DNA of 64,000 bases, taken from Verrucomicrobiota bacterium (GTDB lineage Bacteria; Verrucomicrobiota; Verrucomicrobiia; Limisphaerales; J093). The translations under genes were made by a program, and so were the position numbers. Shown here piece after piece: positions 1,026 to 12,494 of this stretch. How positions within the stretch are numbered: the stretch's first letter is position 1; every line of letters begins with the position of its first letter. The DNA lies in the NCBI GenBank assembly GCA_029556615.1, contig JAKQDD010000210.1, positions 1 through 64,000 on the forward strand, in the 5' to 3' direction. The notes under the pieces are model-generated. The model ran no database searches. It was not told the origin of the DNA and saw only the letters and a program-made list of their open reading frames with translations.

Positions 1026-1601
1026 TCACAGGTATTGCTCCCGGCTCATGCGGGCCAGGATCCGGCGCATCTCGGCCCGGGCGCGGAAGGCGCGGACCTT
1101 GACGAGGGGGATGGACCAGCCGGTGAGAGCGGCGATGTCGCGGACGCTGCGGTCCTCGATTTCGAGCAGGGTAATGACGAGGCGGGCCGGGGGCGAGAGC
1201 TGGTCGAGGACGCGGCGGACCAGTTCGCGGGCGGCGTCGGCGGTTTCCGGGGCGTCCGACGGGTCGGCGGCGAACCGTTCGAGCCAGTTGACTTCATCGT
1301 CGGAGAGGTCGGCGATGGGGATTTCGCGGCGTCGGCGGTGGGCGCGGAGGAAGTCGTAACAGGTGCGGACGGCCAGGCGCATGAGCCAGTGTTCGAACGG
1401 GGCGGCGCCGCGGTAGCTGTCGAGCCGCTGGTAGGCCTTGGCGAAGATCTCCTGGACGATGTCCTCGACCTCGCTGTCGAGCCGGGCGTAGCGGCGGGCG
1501 GTGGCGAACACGCGGGGTTGATAGCGCTGGACGAGCGTCTCGAAGGCCGCAGTCTCCCCGCGGAGGACTGCTGCGACCAACTGGGCGTCGTCGACATCCA
1601 C
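1026..1601 (-). CDS. ECF-family RNA polymerase sigma factor
   Basis: A protein of 191 aa with a GTG start at 1601. Region 2 is clear at residues 7-85: an AFETLVQRYQPRVFATARR helix and the core-binding stretch VEDIVQEIFAKAYQRLDSYR, followed by FEHWLMRLAVRTCYDFLRAHRR. Region 4 lies at about residues 130-185 and carries a helix-turn-helix (SVRDIAALTGWSIPLVKVRAFRAR). Length and lack of regions 1 and 3 match the ECF group of sigma-70. It should direct RNA polymerase to promoters of an envelope or stress regulon. The two genes downstream on the same strand, a one-helix membrane protein and a Spy/YceI-like exported protein, are probably co-transcribed and may be its regulator and target. Confidence 0.92.
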   Translation of the reverse strand: MDVDDAQLVAAVLRGETAAFETLVQRYQPRVFATARRYARLDSEVEDIVQEIFAKAYQRLDSYRGAAPFEHWLMRLAVRTCYDFLRAHRRRREIPIADLSDDEVNWLERFAADPSDAPETADAARELVRRVLDQLSPPARLVITLLEIEDRSVRDIAALTGWSIPLVKVRAFRARAEMRRILARMSREQYL

Positions 1602-1631
1602 AGCATGGAAGGCTGCCGGGCCCGGACAGGG

Positions 1632-3272
1632 TCAGGCGAGCCCGGTGGCTTCGCCGCCGGGCAGGATGCGGATCCGGACGGCAGCGGGCACTTTGGGCAG
1701 GCCGGGCATCGTCACGATGTTGCCGCAGATGACGACCACGAAGCCGGCGCCGGCTGAGACACGCAGCTCGCTGACGGTGATGCGGAACTTGCGGGGGCAG
1801 CCCCGGAGGCCCGGCACATCCGAGAGCGAGAGCGGGGTCTTGGCGATGCAGACCGGCAAGGTGCCGAACCCGTGCCGAGTCAGCAGGTCGAGGTCGGCGC
1901 GGGCGCCCCGGTCGAAGTCGACGCCCTCGGCGCCGTACAAGGCACGGGCGACGCGTTCGATCTTGCGCTCGATGGGATCGGTGAGGGCGTAGAGGAAATG
2001 AAGGCGTCGTCGCCGGTTGCTGGCGATGGCGCGCAGCACGGCTTCCGCGAGCCCGAGGGCTCCCTCGCCGCCCCGGGCGTGGTGTTCGGCCACGACGGCT
2101 TCGACGTCCTCGCGGGTGCAGCAGCGGATGATGCGGTCGAGATCGGCGGGGCGATCGTCGGCGAACCGGTTCAAGGCCACCACCGGCTCGAGGCCGAAGC
2201 GGCGGATGTTGGCAATGTGCTGCGCGAGGTTGGCGATCCCGCCGCCTTTCGAGAACCCGCCGTGGTAGGCGATCGCCTTGGCGGTGGCCACGATGACCGC
2301 GGCGGCGGGCCGCAGTCCCGCGGTGCGGCACTTGATGTGGAAGAACTTCTCCGCGCCCAGCTCGGTGGCGAACCCGGCTTCGGTGACCACCACGTCGGCG
2401 AGTTTCAGCGCCAGGCGGGTGGCCAGGGCCGAGTTGGTGCCCTGGGCGATGTTGGCAAACGGCCCGCCGTGCACGAGCGCCGGGGTGCCTTCGAGCGTCT
2501 GGACCAGGTTCGGATGGACGGCATCGCGCAGGAGCACCTGCATGGCGCCCACGGCTTCGATCTCCCGGGCCGTCACGGGCGCCCCGGCGTAGGTGTAGCC
2601 CACGACCATCCGGCCGAGCCGCTCGCCCAGATCGGCGAAATCCCTCGCCAGACAGAGCACAGCCATCACTTCGGATGCCGGCGTGATGTTGAAGCCGTCG
2701 CGTCGCGGCACGCCGTTCTTGGGGCCGCCCAGGCCGACGATGATGTCCCGGAGCGACCGCTCGTTGAGGTCGATGACCCGGCGCCAGACGATCCGGCGCG
2801 GGTCGATCCCGAGCGAGTTTCCGTGCTGCAGATGGTTGTCGACCATCGCCGCCAGCAGGTTGTTGGCCTTTTCGACGGCGTACATGTCGCCGACAAAATG
2901 CAGGTTGATCGCCTCAGCGGGGACCACCTGGGCGCGGCCGGCTCCGGTCCCGCCTCCCTTGATGCCGAAGTAGGGCCCGAGCGAGGGTTCCCGGACGCAG
3001 GCCATCGAGCGTTTCCCCAGCCGGCGCAGCGCGTCCGCCAGACCGACGGTTGTCGTGGTCTTGCCCTCCCCCTGAGGCGTGGGGGTCATCGCCGTCACGA
3101 GCACCAGATGGCCGTCCGGTCCGTCCGCGCGGGCGGTCAGCTCCTCGAGCGGCACTTTGGCGATGTAATGTCCGTGGGGCAGGATTCGGTCGGCGTCGAG
3201 CCCCAGTTCGCGGGCGACGTCGTGAATGCGGCGTGGCGGTTCCCCCAGGAGGCGTGTGTCAGGATCGGGCAT
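1632..3272 (-). CDS. fhs: Formate--tetrahydrofolate ligase
   Basis: A protein of 546 aa, close to the family norm of about 555. It makes 10-formyltetrahydrofolate from formate, THF and ATP in the cytoplasm, feeding purine synthesis and one-carbon flow. The ATP-binding P-loop TPTPQGEGKTTTTVGL lies near residue 60, followed by EPSLGPYFGIKGGGTGAG, typical of the family. NLHFVGDMYA and HGGPFANIAQGTNS are further signature stretches. The ATG at 3272 (MPDPDTRLLG) was chosen because the frame extends further upstream into sequence shared with the divergent dnaE leader. A good promoter lies about 70 nt upstream. It ends 30 nt from the sigma factor start on the same strand, but the two need not be one operon. 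Confidence 0.96.
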   Translation of the reverse strand: MPDPDTRLLGEPPRRIHDVARELGLDADRILPHGHYIAKVPLEELTARADGPDGHLVLVTAMTPTPQGEGKTTTTVGLADALRRLGKRSMACVREPSLGPYFGIKGGGTGAGRAQVVPAEAINLHFVGDMYAVEKANNLLAAMVDNHLQHGNSLGIDPRRIVWRRVIDLNERSLRDIIVGLGGPKNGVPRRDGFNITPASEVMAVLCLARDFADLGERLGRMVVGYTYAGAPVTAREIEAVGAMQVLLRDAVHPNLVQTLEGTPALVHGGPFANIAQGTNSALATRLALKLADVVVTEAGFATELGAEKFFHIKCRTAGLRPAAAVIVATAKAIAYHGGFSKGGGIANLAQHIANIRRFGLEPVVALNRFADDRPADLDRIIRCCTREDVEAVVAEHHARGGEGALGLAEAVLRAIASNRRRRLHFLYALTDPIERKIERVARALYGAEGVDFDRGARADLDLLTRHGFGTLPVCIAKTPLSLSDVPGLRGCPRKFRITVSELRVSAGAGFVVVICGNIVTMPGLPKVPAAVRIRILPGGEATGLA

Positions 3273-3340
3273 AGCGCAGTACAGGATCTCCTCGTCCGTG
3301 GCCGCACGGCTTCGCGGCGTCCGCGGTCGGTTGGCTTTGC

Positions 3341-3368
3341 AGCATACGGGGCTCTCATGGGCTGTCAA
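3341..3368 (-). promoter_or_regulatory. Putative sigma-70 promoter of fhs
   Basis: On the minus strand a perfect -35 TTGACA (3368-3363) and a -10 TATGCT (3346-3341, four of six matches) are separated by 16 bp. The predicted transcript would begin about 60 nt upstream of the fhs ATG at 3272. It lies in the 175 bp divergent gap between fhs and dnaE. The call is by consensus match only. Confidence 0.45.
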
Positions 3369-3447
3369 CGCGCTGGGCAGGCTCCTGCCCGCCGGAGCCG
3401 TTTCGCGGTGCTTGCGCCGGTTTCTCGACGGGCGATACTCTGGGGGC

Positions 3448-6400
3448 ATGGCGCACGCTGATTTTGTTCATCTGCACGTCCACACGGAGTACTCGTTGCT
3501 GGACGGGGCGTGCCGGCTGGACCGCTTGCTGGAGCGGGCGCACGAGCTGCAGTTCCACTCGCTGGCGATCACGGATCACGGGGTGTTGTACGGGGCGATC
3601 GATTTCTACCAGGCGGCGCGGGCGCGGGGGATCAAGCCGATTTTGGGCTGCGAGGTTTACGTGGCGCCGGGGAGCCGGTTCGAGAAGAAGACGGCGAGCG
3701 GGGGGCGGGATGCGTATCATCACCTGGTTCTGCTGGCGGAGGACGAGACCGGCTACCGCAACCTGGTGCGGCTGGTGACCGCGGCCCATCTCGAAGGGTA
3801 CTATTACAAGCCCCGCATCGACAAGGAGCTGCTCAGCCAGCATCGGGCGGGTCTGATGGCGCTTTCGGGCTGTTTGAAGGGGGAGATTGCGGAGCTGATC
3901 GTGCGCGACCAGCTCGAGTCGGCGCGGCAGGCGATCGACTGGTACCGCCAGGTTCTGGGGGCGGACCGTTTCTATCTCGAGCTGCAGAATCACGGTCTGC
4001 CGGAGCAGGCCAAGGTGAACCGGCAACTTCTCGAGTGGGCGCCCGAGTTTGGTTTGAAGGTGGTGGCGACCAACGACGTGCATTACGTGCGCCAGGAGCA
4101 CTGGCGGGCGCATGACTGCCTGATCTGCATCGGCACGCAGACCACGCTGGATGACACCCGGCGCCTCCGCTATGCGCCCGGCCAGTTTCATCTCCGGTCC
4201 GCCGAGGAGATGAAGGCGCTGTTCGCGGAGGTGCCCGAGGCGATCCGCAACACGGAGGAAGTCGCCCAGCGCTGCAACGTCGAGCTGCGATTCAAGCAGC
4301 TTCACTACCCGACGTACGAGCCCCCCGAGGGGCGCACCCGCGAGGGGTATCTGCGCGAGCTGCTCGTCGAGGGGCTGCAGCGACGCTACGGGCTCAGCGC
4401 GCGGTTCGAGGAGGGGCGCCTGGCGGTGGACGCCGTGGCGGATCCGCGGCGGCTGCCCACGTATGCGGCTCCCGAGGCCGGGACCGACGGCGGCGGGGAG
4501 AGGGCGGCGGCCGCGGCGGCGGTCCGCGCGGTGGCGGATCGGGTCGAGCTCGAGCTCGGGGTGATCGAGAAGACGGGGTTCGTCTCGTATTTTCTGATTG
4601 TGGGGGATTTTGTGCGGCACGGCCGGAGCCGCGGGATCACGTGCGTGGCGCGGGGATCGGCGGCCGGCTCGATTGTCACCTATCTGCTCGAGATTTCGAA
4701 TGTGGATCCGCTCCGCTACGGGTTGTTGTTCGAGCGGTTCCTGAACCCGGAGCGCGTGAACCCGCCGGACATCGACATTGATTTCGCGGACGACCGCCGG
4801 GCGGAGGTGATCGAGTACGTGCGCGGCCGGTACGGCCGGGATTGCGTCGCCCAGATCATCACGTTTGGCACGATGGGGGCGAAGTCCGTGATCCGGGACG
4901 TGGGCCGGGTGATGGGGGTGAGCTACGCGGACTGCGACCGGCTGGCGAAGCTGGTTCCCAGCGACTTGAAGATGACCCTCGAGAAGGCCCTGAAGCAGGC
5001 CCCCGACCTCCAGAAGGCCTGCGACGAGAACGACACGTACCGGGAGCTCATCGAGGTGGCCTTCGTCCTCGAAGACCTCACCCGGAACGCGTCGGTCCAC
5101 GCCGCGGGCGTCGTCATCGGCCCGGAACCGCTTGTCCAGCTCCTCCCTTTGAAGCAGGACGAGGACGGCGCGATCGTGACCCAGTACGCGATGGGGCCGG
5201 TCGGCGATCTCGGACTGTTGAAGATGGACTTCCTGGGGCTGAAGACGCTGACCGTGATCCGCAACACGTGCGAGCTGGTGCGGCGGACCCAGGGGGTCGA
5301 GATCCCGATCGATCACCTTCCCCTCGACGACCCCGACACCTACGACCTCCTGAACAAGGCCAACACCCTCGGCGTGTTCCAGCTGGAATCCGGCGGGATG
5401 CGCGATCTGTGCCGGAAGTTCCAGATCAGCTCGATCGAGCACATCACGGCGCTGATCGCCCTGTATCGGCCGGGCCCGATGGACCTGATTCCGGAGTTCA
5501 TCCAGCGGCGGAACGGCGAGCTGGCCATTGCCTACGAACATCCCCTGCTCGAACCGATCTGTCGCGAGACCTACGGCATCATGGTCTACCAGGAACAGGT
5601 GATGCAGGCCACCCAGGCCCTGGCCGGCTACACCCTCGGCGGCGCCGACCTGCTCCGCCGGGCGATGGGCAAGAAGAACGTCGAGGAAATGGCGCAGCAG
5701 CGCGCGGTCTTTGTCGAGGGCTGCCAGAAGAAGAACCAGATCCCCGAAGCCACCGCCCAGCGGATCTTCAATCTCCTCGAACGCTTCGCCGGGTACGGCT
5801 TCAACAAGTCGCATGCCGCCGCCTACGCGGTGGTGGCCTATCAGACCGCCTATCTGAAGGCGAACTACCCGGTCGAGTTCTTCTGCGCGATGATGACGAA
5901 CGACATGGCGGACACCGCCAAGCTCGGGGCCTACATTGCCGAGGCCCGCGCCTTCGGCATCGAGGTGCTGGGGCCGGACGTCAACGAGAGCGGCGTCCAT
6001 TTCGCGCCCGCGCCGCCCCGGCCGGGCGCCGCCACGCCCGGGCGCGCGATCCGGTTTGGCCTGGTGGCGATCAAGGGCCTGGGCGAGATCGCGGTCCAGC
6101 AGATCCTCGACGCCCGGCAGGCGCACGGTCCGTTCCGGTCCCTCGCCGACCTCTGCGCGCACGTGGACACCCGCACCGTCAACCGGAAGGTGCTCGAGGC
6201 GCTCATCCGCTCCGGTGCCTGCGACGCGCTGGGTGCGTCCCGCGCCGCCCTGTGGGCGTCCATCGACGCGACGCTCGCCCGGGCGGCGAGCGCAGCCCAG
6301 GATCGGACCCGCGGCCAGACCTCGCTCTTTGGCCTGCTCGAAGGCGGCGATCCGCAGGCGCTGTCCCCGATCGTGGCCGTCGAGGAGTGGCCGGAGTCGG

Positions 6401-7116
6401 AGCTCCTCGCCGCCGAGAAGGAGCTTCTGGGTTTCTATGTGAGCGGCCATCCGCTGGCGGCCTGGGCGACGGTGCTCGAGAAGTACGCGCTGGCCACGGC
6501 GAGCTCGCTGGCGGGGCTCGAGAGCGGGTCCATGACCCGCGTCGGCGGGCTGGTGACGAGCGCGCAGCCCGGCATCTCGAAGAAGAACGGCAAGCCGTAT
6601 CTCCTGGCCGTTCTCGAAGACCTCACCGGCGCGATCCCGCTCGTCTGCCTCGGGGAGGCGTGCGAGAAGTTCAAGCCGGTTCTCGTTCCCAAGCGTTCCC
6701 TGCTCGTCATGGGCGAAGTCAACACGCGCGACGACCGGCCGAAGATCTTCCCGCAGGAGATGTTCCCCCTCGAGGAGGCGCCCAAGCGCCTGACCGAACA
6801 GGTCCATCTCCGCCTCCACACGGCGCACCTCGACCGGGAGCGCCTCGAAGCAGCCCGCCAACTGATCGAGCAACACCCGGGCCGGTGCCCGCTCTTTCTC
6901 CGGCTGCTGCGGCCCGACGGTCAGATGGTGTTTCTCGAGGCGCACAGCCATTTCTCCGTGACGCCCTCGGCCGAGCTGCAGCGGGCTGCCGACGCGATGT
7001 TCGGCGAAGGCACGTACTACGCCAAGGTCGATGTCCGCCTGCCTGCCAAGGCGCCGCGCCGGTTCGAGCGGCGCGCGGAGAACGGCTCCGGGAATGGCCG
7101 GCAAGACCGGGACTGA
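3448..7116 (+). CDS. dnaE: DNA polymerase III alpha subunit
   Basis: A protein of 1222 aa, slightly longer than typical DnaE (about 1160). It is the catalytic subunit of the replicative polymerase. The N-terminal PHP domain opens with DFVHLHVHTEYSLLDG. The palm carries the catalytic aspartates in NPPDIDIDFADDRR. The fingers include GYGFNKSHAAAYAVVAYQTA. A C-terminal OB-fold (TRVGGLVTSAQPGISKKNGK) precedes the tail. A short Ala/Gly-rich insertion at about residues 345-365 (GTDGGGERAAAAAAVRAV) may be lineage-specific. The ATG at 3448 gives the usual PHP start; ribosome-binding sequence is weak. The stop is only 4 nt before the next gene, so dnaE probably drives expression of the condensin-like module behind it. 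Confidence 0.97.
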   Translation: MAHADFVHLHVHTEYSLLDGACRLDRLLERAHELQFHSLAITDHGVLYGAIDFYQAARARGIKPILGCEVYVAPGSRFEKKTASGGRDAYHHLVLLAEDETGYRNLVRLVTAAHLEGYYYKPRIDKELLSQHRAGLMALSGCLKGEIAELIVRDQLESARQAIDWYRQVLGADRFYLELQNHGLPEQAKVNRQLLEWAPEFGLKVVATNDVHYVRQEHWRAHDCLICIGTQTTLDDTRRLRYAPGQFHLRSAEEMKALFAEVPEAIRNTEEVAQRCNVELRFKQLHYPTYEPPEGRTREGYLRELLVEGLQRRYGLSARFEEGRLAVDAVADPRRLPTYAAPEAGTDGGGERAAAAAAVRAVADRVELELGVIEKTGFVSYFLIVGDFVRHGRSRGITCVARGSAAGSIVTYLLEISNVDPLRYGLLFERFLNPERVNPPDIDIDFADDRRAEVIEYVRGRYGRDCVAQIITFGTMGAKSVIRDVGRVMGVSYADCDRLAKLVPSDLKMTLEKALKQAPDLQKACDENDTYRELIEVAFVLEDLTRNASVHAAGVVIGPEPLVQLLPLKQDEDGAIVTQYAMGPVGDLGLLKMDFLGLKTLTVIRNTCELVRRTQGVEIPIDHLPLDDPDTYDLLNKANTLGVFQLESGGMRDLCRKFQISSIEHITALIALYRPGPMDLIPEFIQRRNGELAIAYEHPLLEPICRETYGIMVYQEQVMQATQALAGYTLGGADLLRRAMGKKNVEEMAQQRAVFVEGCQKKNQIPEATAQRIFNLLERFAGYGFNKSHAAAYAVVAYQTAYLKANYPVEFFCAMMTNDMADTAKLGAYIAEARAFGIEVLGPDVNESGVHFAPAPPRPGAATPGRAIRFGLVAIKGLGEIAVQQILDARQAHGPFRSLADLCAHVDTRTVNRKVLEALIRSGACDALGASRAALWASIDATLARAASAAQDRTRGQTSLFGLLEGGDPQALSPIVAVEEWPESELLAAEKELLGFYVSGHPLAAWATVLEKYALATASSLAGLESGSMTRVGGLVTSAQPGISKKNGKPYLLAVLEDLTGAIPLVCLGEACEKFKPVLVPKRSLLVMGEVNTRDDRPKIFPQEMFPLEEAPKRLTEQVHLRLHTAHLDRERLEAARQLIEQHPGRCPLFLRLLRPDGQMVFLEAHSHFSVTPSAELQRAADAMFGEGTYYAKVDVRLPAKAPRRFERRAENGSGNGRQDRD

Positions 7117-7120
7117 CGCC

Positions 7121-8344
7121 ATGCGCATCCCGCCACAGACCTTCTTCCACTTTTGCGCGGCGCACGTGCCGCTGCTGCGCGCGCTGGCCGAGGTCCCGGC
7201 CGAGCTCTCCGAAGCCGAGGTTCGCCGCCACATCCGCGCCGCGGCGGGTCCCGAGGACGAGCTGCCGGAGACCACCTGGCGCCGGCTGAACGAGCTGCAG
7301 ATCCTCGTCCCGGTCGAGCCCGGCAGCGATTTTTATTTTGTCGCCGACCCCGTCCGGCGCGTGGTGGCCTATCTTTTTGACGAGGCGCAGCCCACCACGC
7401 CCGAGATCATCCGCGGCTATCTCCAGTCCCTCGACGCCCTGGACCGGCGTCTGGCCCGCGCGATCGAAGGGGACGACCTCACCACCGTGCGGCTGGCGCT
7501 CGAGGAGATCCAGCAGACCTTGCGCCGGATCGCCGCCGACCTGGACGAGACCCACCGCTGCATCCTGGCGGAGGTGGCCCGTTACAAGGCCGAGCGCCAG
7601 GCGGTCTCGGTGCGTGAGAAGTTCCGCCGGATCGTCCACTGGATGGAACGGTACGTGGACCCGATGGTGGACATTCTGCGGCCGGACGGTCCGCTGCGGG
7701 CGGCGTTTATCGAGACCGATCGGCTGCTGCGCCGGGCCCGCGAGAACGGGCTCTTCAACGACCTGCCGGCGCTGGATCGCAACAGCCGGCTCCTCCGCTG
7801 GGTCGAGCGGCACGCGCTCCGCGTGTTCCGCCAATGCCGGCTCGAGCTGCAGCCGCTGTATGAGTCCCTGCGGCGCGCCTCGTTCATGGCCGCCGGCGCC
7901 GCCGCCGCCCTCGACCGGCTTGCGCGGGACGGCCCTGACCGCTGGGCCCCCGAGCACGTCCTCCAGGTCTGCGCCCTCCGTTGGCAGCACGTTCCCTCGG
8001 ACGCCGCCCTCGACCGCGCGCTTCGCAACGTGGCCGAGCATCCGCCCGAGCCGGCCCCCGTGCTGGCGTTCCCGGACGAGGACCCTGCGCCGGCGGCCTA
8101 TCAACGCCGGCTTTGGCTCGAAGGGCTGCCCGAGGCGGTCGGTCCGGTGTTGCCGGTGGACGATCTCCTCGGATGGCTCGTCGGCCGGAACCCTCGTCCC
8201 AACACCGCCGACACCCTGGCCGGGTTCTCGCACCTGGTGTTTCACCCGGTCTTTCGCGCCCGGTTCACCGAGGCGCCCGTGGCTCGCTACCCCACCGCCG
8301 ACGGCGAACTCGAGGCGCCGCCGGTCCGACTTTCCGCCTCATGA
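7121..8344 (+). CDS. jetA: JetA/MksF-like kleisin subunit of a Wadjet-type complex
   Basis: A protein of 407 aa, starting 4 nt after the dnaE stop; an in-frame ATG at 7094 would overlap dnaE. The N-terminal part (1-85) looks like a winged helix: helical, with a strand pair around GSDFYFVADPVRRVVAYLF. Residues 90-200 are mostly helical with heptad-like spacing (LARAIEGDDLTTVRLALEEI), as in MukF and JetA. The C-terminal 120 residues are again helical and end in a small domain. By sequence alone this is weak. The call rests on gene order: a KITE-like protein, an SMC-like ATPase and a Toprim protein follow with overlapping starts, the JetABCD (MksFEBG) order. The kleisin would bridge the ATPase heads. 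The stop overlaps the next start (ATGA). Confidence 0.7.
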   Translation: MRIPPQTFFHFCAAHVPLLRALAEVPAELSEAEVRRHIRAAAGPEDELPETTWRRLNELQILVPVEPGSDFYFVADPVRRVVAYLFDEAQPTTPEIIRGYLQSLDALDRRLARAIEGDDLTTVRLALEEIQQTLRRIAADLDETHRCILAEVARYKAERQAVSVREKFRRIVHWMERYVDPMVDILRPDGPLRAAFIETDRLLRRARENGLFNDLPALDRNSRLLRWVERHALRVFRQCRLELQPLYESLRRASFMAAGAAAALDRLARDGPDRWAPEHVLQVCALRWQHVPSDAALDRALRNVAEHPPEPAPVLAFPDEDPAPAAYQRRLWLEGLPEAVGPVLPVDDLLGWLVGRNPRPNTADTLAGFSHLVFHPVFRARFTEAPVARYPTADGELEAPPVRLSAS

Positions 8345-8901
8345 CTGAACTTCCCCATCTCCGCGAGGTCTTCGAGCTGCTCCGCAGCGGCCATCACCTG
8401 TCGCCCGAAGACGAGCCGGCCTTCTCGGCGGTCGCCAGCCGCCACGACGATTACGCGGCCTATTTCGCCCCGCTCGGGCTCCGGCTGGTCCGGCATCCGC
8501 AGGACTTTTTCTACTTCGAGCCCGAGGGCGGGGAGACGATGCCGCAGACGCTTCCCCGGATCGCCGTGTTCGCCTACATCCTGATCGACCACGCGGCCAA
8601 TGCCGGGCGGGTGATCGAGGATTACGTGTTCAACACGACGTTTCTTCTCGACCGGCTCCCGCACTTCAGCCTTGATCGCTACGCGGCCCTCCTGCGCCAG
8701 GTCGAGGTCGACGATCTCGGCGGGCTCCGGCTCATTGTGAAGAGCATGGAACGCCTCGGGTGGGTGAAGTTCACCGGCGAGGACGAGTTCCGGTTCCTCC
8801 GGCCGATCCACCGGGTATTCGACAAGTGCCTCGAGCTGGCACGGCGGTCGGGCACCGGGACGCAACTCGAGAGCTCCGGCGAGAGCCCGGCCAACCCTTA
8901 G
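8341..8901 (+). CDS. jetB: JetB/MksE-like KITE subunit
   Basis: A protein of 186 aa whose ATG at 8341 overlaps the preceding TGA by 4 nt. It has a helical N-terminus and a strand-turn-strand (LRLVRHPQDFFYFEPE, residues 43-58), then helices and a second winged-helix-like part (MERLGWVKFTGEDEFRFLRP, about 137-156). The two winged-helix segments, the size and the position between a kleisin-like and an SMC-like gene fit the MukE/MksE/JetB group, which binds kleisin as a dimer. The low-complexity C-terminus (about 175-186) looks disordered. Direct similarity is modest, so the name depends on context. Confidence 0.72.
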   Translation: MTELPHLREVFELLRSGHHLSPEDEPAFSAVASRHDDYAAYFAPLGLRLVRHPQDFFYFEPEGGETMPQTLPRIAVFAYILIDHAANAGRVIEDYVFNTTFLLDRLPHFSLDRYAALLRQVEVDDLGGLRLIVKSMERLGWVKFTGEDEFRFLRPIHRVFDKCLELARRSGTGTQLESSGESPANP

Positions 8902-8913
8902 ACCTCCCCTGCC

Positions 8914-11637
8914 ATGCCCCACGGTCCCACCAAGCTCATCCTGATCCGCGCCGGGCGCTACGATTACGCCGAGGTCGAACTGCGCGGGACGCTCCAGATC
9001 GTCGGCCCCAACAACACCGGGAAGACGACCCTGATCAACACCCTCCAGTTCCTTTACCTCGATGACCGTCGCCACATGGACTTCGGTTCCTACACGGCGG
9101 AGCAGACGCGGGACTACTATTTCCCCAACCAGTACAGCTATATCCTCTTCGAGTGCGTGGGTGTCCGGGGCCAATGCGTCCTCGGCTGGCGCGGCACCAG
9201 CAAGGCGGCTGGCGGCGACCCCGAGCGCTTCGGCTACGAAGGCCCGTTTGATCCCGCCGATTTCCTCGAGGACGACCATCGGGTGCGCGAACCCAAAGCC
9301 GTCAGCAGCCGACTCGGTCTGAAGAACCTGGTTGTGTTCAAGACTGCCCAGGAACATCGCGAGTTCCTCCTGCCCCCCACCCGCGGCCATGGGACCGGCG
9401 CCGGCCTCGTCGGCCTCCGCGACGCCGACCACTACCCCCACTTTCGCGAGACGCTCAAGAACCTCCTCTGCCTGAGCATCATCACCCAGGACCAGATGCG
9501 CGAGCGGCTCCTCATGCTCGCCGGTCTCCCGGCCGACCGCTGCGCCCTCGATGTCCGGCAGCTGTTCGGCGACGACTACGAGCGGATCCTGCGCCTCAAG
9601 CAGAAGCTGCTCCGTTTCAAGAAACATCAGGCGCGGGTTGAACAGCTCGTCGACGCCGCCGCCCGGCGCGACCGCTTGCGCGGGGAACAGATCTACCGGT
9701 GGAGCGACCTGCGCGGCAAACGCCTCGCGTTCGAAACCGCGCACCAGGCCCGGCTCGACCAGCTCGCCGCCGAGGCCGACGCCGCCGCCAACCGCCTGCG
9801 CCTTCTCCAGGCCGAGCTCGCGGATCGACGGCAGGAGGCGGAATCCCTCGCCGGCGCCCGGGGTGCTCTCGAGGGCCAGCTCGCCGGCCTTGCCGCCCTC
9901 GCGCGGGAGTTCACCGGGTTCGTCGAGCCGCTCGCGCGCACCGCGCTCCGCAACCTCGAAGCCGATCTCCTCCGCCTCCAGCAGCAGCTCGGCGAAGCCG
10001 AGCGCGAGACCCGGCCGAAAGCCGAACAGAAGGTCGCCCTGTACCGCGAGCTCGTGGCGCGCCAGCGCCGCACCCTGGAACATTTTGATCGCGCCCTGTT
10101 GACCGTGCTCCGCCGCGATCTCTCGCTGGACGAGCTCGACCCGGTGGCCCGCCTCTTCAACTTCGATCTGCTCGAGCAGCCGGTCGGCAAGGACGGCGTC
10201 GAGATCCGGCGTCGCGACGAGCTGGCCGGCCTGCTTCGGCTCATTGCCTCGCGGATTCGGGACAGCACCTACCGCGATCCGGCGCTCGTCCTGCCCCTGC
10301 CGCCCGCCCGGCAGACCGTCGACAGCCTGGCCGACCCCGAGGCCGTCCGCGAACGCCTCGCCGAAGAGGAGGACACCCTCCGGCGCTGGGAACGCATCCT
10401 CAACGCCATCACCGAACGGGAGAGCCTCCAGGCCGAGCTGACCCGGCAGACCGCCGACCTCGACCGCCTGCGCCAGCAGATCTTCCGCTGGGATCAGTAC
10501 CAGACGGCGCGCGCCGAGGAGCCCCGGCTCGAGGCCGAGCGCCAGAAGACGGAGGCGGCTCTCGCCGCCGCCCACGCTGCCGCCTCCCGCCTCGAGGGCC
10601 AGATCGAAACCGTCCGCAAAGCCCGCGAAACCGCGGAGACGGCCCGGATTGCCGAGGAGAACCAATTCAACGCCGTCATGGGCCGCTACAACCTGTGCGA
10701 CTGTCCCGAGTTCGACGCGCGGCTGCAGGCCCCGGAGGACGTGTTGCCCGGGGACTTCGACACCGCCGTCGCGCTCTTCCTCCGCGCGCAAAAGACGCTC
10801 GAAGACCTCAACGTCGGCGTCCGCGAACGCTTCCTCGAATTGGAGGGCGCCCTGGGCAGCGAGTTCACGGGGCCCGACGAGGCTGAGACGCTCCGCACGC
10901 TCCGGGAGGAACTCGAAGCGCTGCCCGACCGCGAGGAGGCGCTCCGCCGCAATTGGGAGCACCAGCTTCACCAGCTCCGCGCGACGTTTGATCATCTCCT
11001 CCGCGATTTCGCCGACATCAAGAGCGCCGCCGATCGCCTCAACCGCGCGCTGGGCGGCATCCCGATCTCGAACCTCAAGGCCCTGCATCTGGACGTCATC
11101 GAGCATGCGGACATCGTCGGCTCCCTCCGCCGCCTGGCCAACCTCGAACAACCCGGGCTCTTTGACGACAGCGCCGGCCTCGAGTCGGCGGTGGCCGCCT
11201 TCCGCCAGAAGTTCGAGGCGAGTCCCCTGCTCCGGTATGCCGACCTGTTCACGCTCCGGTTCACGGTCACCGGCGACGACGGCAAGCCGCATGCCTACCA
11301 CGACTTCCGCCAGGTCGAATCCCACGGCACCACCATTACCATCAAGGTGCTCTTCAACCTCCTGGTCCTGCGCAGTCTCCTGCGCGAAGACCACGCCAAG
11401 GGCCCGCTGTGCGAGGTCCCGTTCTTCCTGGACGAGATCCACTCGCTCGACGCCGTCAACCGGCACGCCATCCTCACCACCGCCCGCCGGCTCGGCTTCA
11501 TTGCGATCACCGCCGCCCCCGAGCCCGTCAGCGAAGTCGAGGCTCTCTACTTCCTCCAGCCCCGGGACGGGCGGATCATCCTCCGCCAGCGTCATCGCGT
11601 CGGCATCACGCGGTCCACCCCACCCCTGCCCTCGTGA
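8914..11637 (+). CDS. jetC: JetC/MksB-like SMC-family ATPase
   Basis: A protein of 907 aa. Walker A is GPNNTGKTT at residues 31-39, within a YDYAEVELRGTLQIVG head opening like MukB and JetC. Long coiled coils rich in Glu, Arg, Leu and Ala occupy roughly 205-340 and 445-690, with a non-coiled stretch between them (about 340-445) that could be a hinge. An ABC-like signature is replaced by ESHGTTITIKVLFNLLVL (about 802-819; S803). Walker B is VPFFLDEIHSLD with D840 and E841. At 907 aa it is shorter than MukB (about 1480) and than usual JetC (about 1100), so arms are short. It starts 12 nt after jetB and its stop overlaps the jetD start (GTGA). ATP-driven loop extrusion on DNA is the expected role. 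Confidence 0.85.
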   Translation: MPHGPTKLILIRAGRYDYAEVELRGTLQIVGPNNTGKTTLINTLQFLYLDDRRHMDFGSYTAEQTRDYYFPNQYSYILFECVGVRGQCVLGWRGTSKAAGGDPERFGYEGPFDPADFLEDDHRVREPKAVSSRLGLKNLVVFKTAQEHREFLLPPTRGHGTGAGLVGLRDADHYPHFRETLKNLLCLSIITQDQMRERLLMLAGLPADRCALDVRQLFGDDYERILRLKQKLLRFKKHQARVEQLVDAAARRDRLRGEQIYRWSDLRGKRLAFETAHQARLDQLAAEADAAANRLRLLQAELADRRQEAESLAGARGALEGQLAGLAALAREFTGFVEPLARTALRNLEADLLRLQQQLGEAERETRPKAEQKVALYRELVARQRRTLEHFDRALLTVLRRDLSLDELDPVARLFNFDLLEQPVGKDGVEIRRRDELAGLLRLIASRIRDSTYRDPALVLPLPPARQTVDSLADPEAVRERLAEEEDTLRRWERILNAITERESLQAELTRQTADLDRLRQQIFRWDQYQTARAEEPRLEAERQKTEAALAAAHAAASRLEGQIETVRKARETAETARIAEENQFNAVMGRYNLCDCPEFDARLQAPEDVLPGDFDTAVALFLRAQKTLEDLNVGVRERFLELEGALGSEFTGPDEAETLRTLREELEALPDREEALRRNWEHQLHQLRATFDHLLRDFADIKSAADRLNRALGGIPISNLKALHLDVIEHADIVGSLRRLANLEQPGLFDDSAGLESAVAAFRQKFEASPLLRYADLFTLRFTVTGDDGKPHAYHDFRQVESHGTTITIKVLFNLLVLRSLLREDHAKGPLCEVPFFLDEIHSLDAVNRHAILTTARRLGFIAITAAPEPVSEVEALYFLQPRDGRIILRQRHRVGITRSTPPLPS

Positions 11638-12494
11638 ACTCGAAAGAACAGGTCCGCGCGCAACTCGAGCGCTTCGCCCGCGAGGGCACCCTGGCGGGAA
11701 CCGCCTGCAGCAAGGCGCTCCGCACCCGGCTCCTGCCGCTGCTCGCCAGCGGTATCGTCGCCGAGGAACGCGCCGGCGCCGGCCGGCGCTTCGTCCTCGC
11801 CGATCGCCAGGCGTTCGCTCGATTCCTCGCCCGCCAGTTCCCGGCCGCCGACCTGCCCGGCCCGGCGCTCTCCCGCGTGACCGGTCTCGGCCGGTTCCGC
11901 GACTCGAAGGCCTACTCGAGCGACACCCCTGAGATCGTCGCGGTGCGCGCCGCGCGCGACGTCCTTCTGGATCCCGACGGTCAGCCTGTGGCCGCCGCCG
12001 CCGCCACCGCCCATCACGGGGTCTTCGCCTTCCTGCTTTCAGCCGGGTCCAGGTACCGCCTCGAAGGTCCGACGGCGCTGATCGAGAATCCGGCGCTCTT
12101 CACCCAGTGGGAACGGCTTGGATTGCCGGTCGGGCTGGCCCTCTACAGCCAGGGCAAGATCTCCGGCCGGCTTCTTGATTGGCTCGTCCGGCAGACAGCC
12201 TCTCGGTTCACGTTGCTGCACCTGCCGGACTATGATCCCGCGGGCCTTGTCGAGCACGAACGCCTTTGCCGGCGCTTGGGCTCCCGGGTCGAGCTGTATT
12301 GGCCGGAGGATCTCGAGGCCCGTTTCCATCGCTACGCCAACCGATGGCTGCTGGATCGGCCCCGCCAACGCGCGGCGCTGGCCCGGCTGCGCGCAGCGGC
12401 GTCCCCGGCCGTGCGTGCCGTCGTGGCCCTGATCGACCGCTCCAACGGCGGGCTCGAGCAGGAAGCCCTGCTCCTGCCCGCCGGGATCGCCTAG
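11634..12494 (+). CDS. jetD: JetD/MksG-like Toprim nuclease subunit, compact form
   Basis: A protein of 286 aa with a GTG start at 11634 overlapping the jetC stop. Residues 1-75 form a small winged-helix-like part (VRAQLERFAREGTLAGTACS). The C-terminal half is Toprim-like: the acidic residue in TALIENPALF (E151), the metal-binding pair in LLHLPDYDPAGL (D199, D201), and a terminal GLEQEALL motif seen in JetD. Known JetD proteins are about 380-420 aa, so the N-terminal region is reduced. In Wadjet systems this subunit cleaves DNA trapped by the extruding complex, which removes small circular plasmids. The stop codon TAG is part of the CTAG edge of repeat element A. Confidence 0.8.
   Translation: MNSKEQVRAQLERFAREGTLAGTACSKALRTRLLPLLASGIVAEERAGAGRRFVLADRQAFARFLARQFPAADLPGPALSRVTGLGRFRDSKAYSSDTPEIVAVRAARDVLLDPDGQPVAAAAATAHHGVFAFLLSAGSRYRLEGPTALIENPALFTQWERLGLPVGLALYSQGKISGRLLDWLVRQTASRFTLLHLPDYDPAGLVEHERLCRRLGSRVELYWPEDLEARFHRYANRWLLDRPRQRAALARLRAAASPAVRAVVALIDRSNGGLEQEALLLPAGIA

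Follow-up and report, generated by a model that had tools for sequence, protein, structure and literature searches.

A four-gene operon of a Verrucomicrobiota bacterium, encoding an MksBEF-like short-arm SMC ATPase and a compact Toprim protein, as a candidate system for restriction of small circular DNA

A four-gene operon in a Verrucomicrobiota bacterium probably encodes an MksBEFG/Wadjet-like restriction machine for small circular DNA, built on a short-arm SMC motor of MksBEF-like type. The operon lies in the window, the whole stretch of 64,000 nucleotides that was analysed, and its genes, like all motifs given below, run co-directionally on the forward strand. They encode a kleisin (gene A, 7121 to 8344, 407 aa, JetA/MksF role, assigned by NCBIfam NF040857), an MksE-type KITE subunit (gene B, 8341 to 8901, 186 aa, JetB/MksE, Pfam PF21980), a short-arm SMC ATPase (gene C, 8914 to 11637, 907 aa, JetC/MksB role, NCBIfam NF040859 and a tree of SMC heads) and a putative compact Toprim nuclease with a GTG start (gene D, 11634 to 12494, 286 aa, JetD/MksG role, DUF7281-type, predicted fold and profiles). 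Genes A and B share a 4-nt overlap, ATGA, as do C and D, GTGA, and 12 nt separate B from C. A sequence-only reading of this DNA had described these ORFs, sizes and junctions as they are, and its subunit roles and JetABCD order were right as well. Because the identical A-B-C-D order recurs in 13 further loci, 7 from Verrucomicrobiota-type genomes and 6 on plasmids, the conserved arrangement marks the four ORFs as genuine genes and not chance reading frames.

The two small subunits resemble Mks proteins. Gene A, the first gene in all 14 aligned operons, scores 51 bits (E 9e-14) against NF040857, an Mks subunit model of 412 positions, and profile-profile comparison of A with the canonical Wadjet kleisin gives no match (prob 1.4). 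Gene B scores 100.5 bits (E 1.6e-28) against PF21980, MksE, for which the cut-off is 27, and the profile of its family matches MukE structures at E 6.8e-7. The profile-profile match of B to the canonical Wadjet KITE (prob 84) is weaker than the Toprim match described below. None of the PADLOC Jet profiles matches A or B at E<=1.

Whether these proteins are small depends on the yardstick. The sequence-only reading had called all four subunits short, which is true when they are set beside the phylum's canonical Wadjet operons, where A measures 478-521, B 211-250, C 1122-1166 and D 390-410 aa in the five loci with all four genes clearly readable (L098, L105, L106, L109 and L110). This does not carry over to the NCBIfam Mks models, whose lengths are 412, 232 and 926 positions, with no such model for D. 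By these models A and C are of normal size and B is somewhat short; D alone is clearly reduced, at its N-terminus (286 vs 390-410 aa).

In gene C, Walker A (GPNNTGKT, 9004 to 9027, residues 31-38) and Walker B (FFLDE, 11422 to 11436, residues 837-841) are where the sequence-only reading had placed them, with N33, N34, G36 and K37 of the former and D840 and E841 of the latter invariant in 14/14 proteins. The ABC signature, SHGT (11320 to 11331, residues 803-806), is non-canonical. The pattern S-x-G-[T/S] is found in 23/23 rows of the window-type clade (21 by pattern, with L015 and L017 read separately), as against SGG[E/Q] in 16/16 comparison JetC rows, and with this departure the ATPase cycle may differ. 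Against NF040859, the Mks SMC model, C scores 150 bits (E 6e-44), where the equivalog cut-off is 1900, and the SMCs of its relatives L014, L015 and L013 score 330, 308 and 220 bits. The same model has no match at E<=0.001 among three canonical JetC proteins, one long-arm SMC and MukB. The phylogeny of SMC heads likewise sets the window type apart: its 23 rows separate at 100/100 from canonical JetC (15 rows), a single type II/III-like row and MukB, a split that may have been sharpened by the collection of rows with two different profiles. L101 and L118-L122 were left out of this tree, as was L052, whose SMC is partial and lies at the end of a contig.

PADLOC profiles describe C poorly. Its best match there is LmuB of Lamassu, at 26.9 bits over residues 178-710, followed by JetC1 at 23.5 bits over residues 6-59 of 907, the Walker A region; no full-length match to a JetC profile of PADLOC was found. 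LmuB at E<=0.01 is common to 10 of the 14 members of the C alignment, that of the window included, and JetC1 is matched by 11. Kinship of C to Lamassu, Gabija, AriA or OLD was considered and dismissed, as the matches cover mainly Walker A or a coiled-coil stretch. The profile search proposed with the sequence-only reading gave a divided answer, with Mks models matching B and C, but Jet profiles reaching C only at Walker A and A and B not at all. Because the AF2 model of C (pLDDT 54.7) is too poor for measurement of arm or hinge, arm length was read from the spacing between Walker A and the signature. This is 767 residues in C against 942-994 in the 15 canonical rows, in agreement, as far as canonical Wadjet is concerned, with the earlier suggestion of reduced arms.

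The AF2 model of D has a pLDDT of 74.6, its N-terminal part being a weak prediction, and the fold is predicted to be a Toprim of Topo VI-A/MksG type. VIA Z is 12.2 with Topo VI-A, 12.1 with C. glutamicum MksG (8b7f; rmsd 2.8, 151 aligned) and 10.6 with JetD (7til). Thus both points on which the sequence-only reading had staked its assignment, an SMC matching an Mks model and a predicted Toprim fold for the 286-aa protein, came out in its favour. Profile-profile comparison pairs the D family with canonical JetD over the Toprim half (prob 92.8, E 3.9e-7); a search of PDB sequences with the D profile found no match. The acidic residues named earlier, the Toprim glutamate E151 (12084 to 12086) and D199 and D201 of the DxD motif D199-Y200-D201 (12228 to 12236), are invariant in 22/22 compact D proteins, as is G204. 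So is E277 of the C-terminal E275-Q276-E277 (12456 to 12464), whose other two residues are kept in at least 90% of the 22. In hhalign this triplet pairs with E387-Q388-E389 of the LEQE motif of canonical JetD, invariant in 7 proteins.

The N-terminal region of JetD is reduced in this protein, as had been proposed: some 90-98 residues precede the aligned Toprim in D, compared with about 216 in MksG and about 204 in JetD. D thus lacks the full N-terminal region (about 200 residues) of those proteins and is about 110-120 residues shorter than canonical JetD. An N-terminal winged helix is suggested tentatively by matches of residues 1-75 of the model at Z of about 7, inside the noise range of the tool. 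In PADLOC, D scores 13.7 bits to JetD2, over its C-terminal part only, and among relatives the D of L014 scores 26.1 bits to JetD2 and that of L053 15.9 bits to JetD1. Pfam DUF7281 (PF23947) gives the window D 21.5 bits, for a cut-off of 27; at E<=0.01 it matches 12 of 15 D proteins, that of the window included, and the D proteins of L014, L053, L054 and L056 pass the cut-off.

Full or partial copies of the system occur in 6 of 58 relatives, its own genome counted; at E<=0.001, 8 of the 58 have matches, two of these being short Walker-type matches only. Among 387 genomes of the phylum, D is matched in 7 and C in 13, the latter comprising five short-arm SMCs (one partial), six long-arm SMCs and two matches that are weak or confined to coiled coil (G167 and G271). 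The own genome also carries a separate SMC. In the aligned set of 14 loci, the B protein of L015 and the D proteins of L015, L016 and L017 were recognized by position and conserved motifs and not by a significant pairwise match to the window protein; the D of L016 is matched by that of L014. The copy in G012 appears broken, split across two contigs with pieces of A and C fused in one frame, although misassembly is possible. It was excluded from alignments A2-A4 and A11, and its D stretch (L023), which lacks the C-terminal EQE, was kept in A1. For the long-arm relative L119, no D was seen in the 5 kb read downstream. The six plasmids with all four genes are circles of 76, 156, 172, 190, 904 and 972 kb, from a collection of 72,556 records and 7.3 billion bases; plasmids of Salinibacter and Halioglobus are among the carriers. 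No relative was confirmed in viral contigs scanned with the profiles of D and of C, and phage records gave no match to the SMC of L014.

The start codon of jetA stands 4 nt past the stop codon of dnaE. A partnership of dnaE with the jet genes was considered and set aside: of 42 other loci searched, two have a DnaE-family gene upstream, L022 and, at a greater distance, L021, and these genes are only 29-30% identical to the window DnaE. Neither a tRNA nor an Rfam match at the gathering threshold was found in the window, comparison with PHROGs gave nothing useful, and inspection by eye showed no defence island around the locus.

By analogy with characterised Wadjet and MksBEFG systems, two copies of C, the kleisin A and KITE dimers of B would form an ATP-driven complex that loads onto DNA and extrudes loops. 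D, presumably as a dimer, would dock on this ABC complex and make double-strand breaks once extrusion has run its full course on a closed circle of small size; plasmids would thereby be destroyed and the chromosome spared. Judged from its anatomy, D would keep at most a small winged-helix domain N-terminal of the Toprim; being short at that end, it may have simpler autoinhibition and docking, or depend on A and B for both.

The complex might instead be a chromosome-organising MksBEF condensin, whose Toprim partner serves the chromosome, for instance by untangling it or by introducing regulated breaks. The nearest named profiles are indeed those of Mks condensin subunits, the locus has housekeeping-looking neighbours and a base composition without anomaly, as a native gene set would, and P. 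aeruginosa MksBEF works in chromosome segregation (PMC7485682). We consider this unlikely, since the system is patchily distributed (6 of 58 relatives) and the genome has an SMC of its own, both of which weaken any housekeeping reading; moreover, copies reside on plasmids, that of G012 is apparently broken (if not misassembled), and the catalytic residues of MksG are retained in 22/22 D proteins. Defence aimed at phage or at linear or replicating DNA, with recognition shifted by short arms and an altered signature, is quite improbable. Those two features of C would fit it, as would LmuB of Lamassu as top PADLOC match, an AbiEii toxin gene near one relative and a phage integrase near another; but the LmuB match falls in a coiled-coil stretch, Lamassu has a different gene set, and MksG and JetD, the closest of the characterised nuclease subunits, are both described as acting on plasmids (PMC10586767, PMC10123090).

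Very improbable, in our judgement, is a module for competition or stability borne on plasmids or islands, by which large replicons exclude or cure smaller circles and from which the chromosomal copies would have been captured. It draws on the sizes of the six plasmids and on the head tree, where a contig labelled Prosthecobacter nests beside one labelled Limisphaerales. The records of the plasmid collection average about 100 kb in any case, however, making six large ones suggestive only, and the idea overlaps the restriction of small circular DNA favoured here.

More broadly, and tentatively, DUF7281-type operons could constitute a distinct Wadjet/Mks type, with SMCs of about 900 and about 1200 aa, an altered ABC signature and a minimal Toprim nuclease, and be nuclease-bearing relatives of the chromosomal MksBEF of P. 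aeruginosa. If so, both the step from plasmid defence to condensin and the relation of arm length to the size of circle cut would be testable inside one clade. A review considers P. aeruginosa MksBEF likely derived from plasmid-cutting JetABCD through loss of the nuclease (PMC10586767), and operons that pair a nuclease with an MksBEF-like motor offer material for testing that origin. As one nuclease type occurs naturally with SMCs of both short and long arms, a direct test could be made of arm length as what sets the size of restricted circles, and the compact D is a simpler target for separating the control parts of JetD from its cutting parts. PADLOC (PADLOC-DB 2.0.0, with Wadjet types I-III), a widely used defence catalogue, leaves the system uncalled, and surveys of defence genes based on models of this kind would miss it. 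The epithet 'undescribed' that the sequence-only reading gave its compact subtype is unproven, as a 2025 survey applied size filters that the window operon would pass (PMC7617805), and such operons are probably already in that survey, unnamed. MukBEF, described there as lacking MksG/JetD, is like the window operon in MukE-KITE homology and a weak SMC profile match to MukB, and unlike it in the 1486 aa and STGE signature of MukB.

Among known systems, profile comparison supports a position closer to MksBEF models than to Wadjet JetABC profiles, resting on the names of the NCBIfam models and not on direct comparison with P. aeruginosa proteins. Like MksBEF, the operon has an MksE above the Pfam cut-off, an SMC of about 900-930 aa and a kleisin matching a 412-position model, but its scores fall far below the equivalog cut-offs of NF040857/58/59, which we take to represent the P. 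aeruginosa-type MksBEF complex. MksB coiled coils are reported to be shorter than in typical SMCs (PMC4255302). The complex of P. aeruginosa, the best-known MksBEF, is described as acting in chromosome segregation and organisation (PMC7485682) and as having no nuclease (PMC10586767), whereas the window operon has a fourth gene of nuclease type. With Wadjet type I/MksBEFG (C. glutamicum MksBEFG, in which MksG is the demonstrated nuclease of a plasmid-restricting complex (PMC10123090), and the Wadjets of PA14 and E. coli), it shares gene content, order, Toprim fold and catalytic set. It differs in an SMC head of another clade with S-x-G-[T/S] instead of SGG[E/Q], in a shorter Walker A-signature spacing, in a shorter D and in a kleisin unmatched by profile. 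The DUF7281-type long-arm systems L053-L058 (C of 1201-1226 aa) have an SMC about 300 aa longer, with Walker A GTQGTGKS in 4/6, and the C of L053 matches PF12128, DUF3584, and not NF040859 (one row tested each). They share with the window operon the compact D of about 285-300 aa, the ABC signature, the clade, and a B found with the same profile, that of L053 matching MksE PF21980.

Re-reading of the coordinates and translated sequences bore out the four open reading frames, their junctions and their motifs as proposed by the sequence-only reading. The kleisin gene A (7121-8344, 407 aa) is followed by the KITE gene B (8341-8901, 186 aa), the SMC ATPase gene C (8914-11637, 907 aa) and the gene for the compact Toprim protein D (11634-12494, 286 aa, GTG start). 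The proposed JetABCD order likewise holds beyond the window, since A-B-C-D is kept across 14 aligned loci, in which B of plasmid locus L015 and D of plasmid loci L015-L017 were placed by position and motifs.

The window comes from a draft assembly of 7.2 Mb, made up of 260 contigs. The G+C content of the operon is like that of its surroundings, and in third-position G+C genes A and C resemble dnaE. The dnaE gene itself (3226-7121), whose identity was confirmed with TIGR00594 and which is the best match to that model in the genome, has its stop codon 4 nt before the jetA start. DnaE-family genes also lie upstream of jetA in two other loci, about 1.3 kb away in L022 and about 6.5 kb away in L021, and are only 29-30% identical. 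Other neighbors, recognized by eye from their first residues, are presumably cysteinyl-tRNA synthetase, ATP synthase subunits and dnaN, a housekeeping-like setting; inspection of the window flanks by eye revealed no defense island around the operon.

PF21980 identifies B as a KITE protein of the MksE family (100.5 bits against a cut-off of 27), and the profile of its family also picks up MukE structures (E 6.8e-7). In keeping with the SMC-like ATPase proposed, C is matched at 150 bits by the NCBIfam model for Mks SMC proteins, NF040859 (926 positions). A is matched at 51 bits by the corresponding kleisin model, NF040857 (412 positions), and both scores fall far under the equivalog cut-offs. 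We take these two models to represent the P. aeruginosa-type Mks complex. Their names look swapped, the kleisin model being called "MksB" and the SMC model "MksF", the reverse of published use; MksB of C. glutamicum is described as a 1111-aa condensin-like protein (PMC10123090). Among the defense-system profiles of PADLOC, C scored highest with the Lamassu profile LmuB (26.9 bits over residues 178-710) and next with JetC1 (23.5 bits, residues 6-59), D matched JetD2 at 13.7 bits, and the Jet profiles gave no match to A or B.

The Pfam family DUF7281 matches D of the window at 21.5 bits (cut-off 27); at E<=0.01 it is matched by 12 of 15 D proteins, this one included, and JetD_C by 5 of the 15. 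The structure of D was predicted with AlphaFold2 from four sequences (mean pLDDT 74.6, residues 70-96 unreliable). The Toprim fold proposed for D is borne out by this model, for which VIA-align returned Topo VI-A 9o0g at Z 12.2 (177 residues aligned at rmsd 3.4). C. glutamicum MksG 8b7f scored Z 12.1, with residues 99-283 of the model superposed on 217-377 of the chain (151 aligned at rmsd 2.8). Spo11 followed at Z 11.2, then P. aeruginosa JetD 7til at Z 10.6, where residues 91-284 of the model correspond to 205-371 of the chain (161 aligned at rmsd 3.3); the next Toprim rows fall to Z 7.6. Foldseek gave two matches at E<=0.001, both Topo VI-A. When compact D was compared profile to profile with seven canonical JetD proteins from this phylum, the alignment covered the Toprim half (probability 92.8, E 3.9e-7) and paired E151, DxD and EQE; EN, GDxD and EQE are invariant in those seven. 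Residues E151, D199 and D201, singled out from the sequence alone, are invariant in all 22 compact D proteins, as are G204 and E277, and K92, N152, E275 and Q276 are nearly so. The N-terminus is about 110-120 residues shorter than in MksG and canonical JetD. From the invariant residues and the structure and profile alignments, D therefore retains the catalytic set behind a shortened N-terminus, in which residues 1-75 tentatively model as a winged helix (Z about 7).

C found matches at E<=0.001 in 8 of 58 relatives. Two of these are Walker-type matches of only 44-51 residues (E 6e-4 to 8e-4); with these set aside, the count is six of 58, own genome included. In one of the six (G012), pieces of A and C are fused in one frame, the rest lies on another contig, and the end of D is altered; this copy looks like a broken operon, for which decay and misassembly are both possible. 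The window's own genome has a separate SMC, and PADLOC JetC1 found no match there at E<=1e-10. The phylum draw gave C in 13 of 387 genomes (five short-arm, six long-arm, two weak) and D in seven of 387. The long-arm SMCs from the phylum search have 1201-1226 aa (L053-L058), and their B and compact D are recognized by the same profiles, the Pfam check covering B and C of L053 and D of L053, L054 and L056. Of 213 genomes of the phylum, 22 have canonical JetC1. Seventeen canonical loci were fetched, including L112 from the JetD2 search; the five clearly readable for all four genes encode A of 478-521, B of 211-250, C of 1122-1166 and D of 390-410 aa.

The four-gene set occurs on six plasmid records, from Salinibacter (76 kb), Halioglobus (156 kb), Neptuniibacter (172 kb), Polaromonas (190 kb), Pseudomonas Leaf58 (904 kb) and P. 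amygdali (972 kb); the plasmid of Pseudomonas FeN3W (910 kb) has a C-like piece only. The SMC of plasmid locus L014 had no match among 50,697 phage records. Plasmid relatives from Vibrio (L120) and Acinetobacter (L122) have a C-first gene order, a related long SMC and a compact D of DUF2399/DUF7281 type and similar size. Large Enterobacterales plasmids carry short SMC matches, with an insertion sequence close behind the gene in the one opened (L121). The operon of Persicobacter plasmid pPP3 (L119, 3212-8675) is a long-arm member with B and C, and A by position; no D was found within 5 kb downstream, possibly a natural loss of the nuclease inside the clade. In L021, genes for an AbiEii-type toxin and a DUF7002 protein (1042-3347), some 3-5 kb downstream of the operon, possibly make up a small defense cluster, and in L011 a gene for a phage-type integrase (966-2432), some 3.8 kb upstream of the operon, hints at mobility.

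MksG was earlier proposed as a partner of MksBEF (PMC7083940). A survey of the Wadjet group required MksB over 890 aa, MksF of 400-1200 and MksE of 150-800, sizes with which the window operon would pass, and checked neighbors of MksG-negative operons by AlphaFold2 (PMC7617805). The literature searched, outside which most subscription papers and preprints lie, yielded neither a named compact or fourth Wadjet type nor a mention of DUF7281.

Wadjet/MksBEFG complexes, with MksG as nuclease subunit, are understood to load onto DNA, to form loops by extrusion and to cleave a small circle once extrusion on it is complete (PMC10586767, PMC10123090). The same logic probably applies here and is our best guess, because the Walker motifs and Toprim residues are conserved, D has the predicted fold and the genes form an operon: the complex would load onto DNA in like manner, the SMC motor would extrude loops, and D would cut when extrusion finishes on small circular DNA. 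JetD touches an IFDR motif at the JetB N-terminus (PMC10586767). The sequence [I/V]FDRL occurs near the N-terminus in 6 of 14 B proteins, the window B having VFELL, and may hint at how D docks; alternatively, its role as a helix may be purely structural.

In a 40-row tree built from joined pieces of the ATPase head, a 100/100 branch separates 17 short-arm and six long-arm DUF7281-type rows from 15 JetC1-type rows, E. coli MukB and one type II/III-like row; under the midpoint root, the long-arm rows form a single 100/100 group within the short-arm rows. Because of that root, the long branches (MukB, the type II/III-like row and several flagged joins) and the different profiles with which the two sides were collected, the split is claimed, firmly, for these rows only and without a direction of arm-length change. 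The ABC signature reads S-x-G-[T/S] in 23/23 DUF7281-type rows, SGG[E/Q] in 16/16 comparison rows and STGE in MukB. Walker A and signature are 767 residues apart in C of the window, 766-800 in 15 short rows (L015 and L017, missed by the signature pattern, have no value), 1069-1092 in six long rows, 942-994 in 15 canonical rows, 1198 in the type II/III-like row and 1327 in MukB. Model NF040859 matches all three short plasmid relatives searched (220-330 bits) and, at E<=0.001, none of three canonical JetC proteins, one long-arm SMC and MukB. The compact subtype first suggested falls, together with the long-arm rows, in a separate clade of the head tree, and its reading as a plain shortening of canonical Wadjet is not borne out: on tree split, signature, arm spacing and NF040859 matches, the predicted system is an MksBEF-like motor plus a nuclease, more than a canonical Wadjet with shortened subunits.
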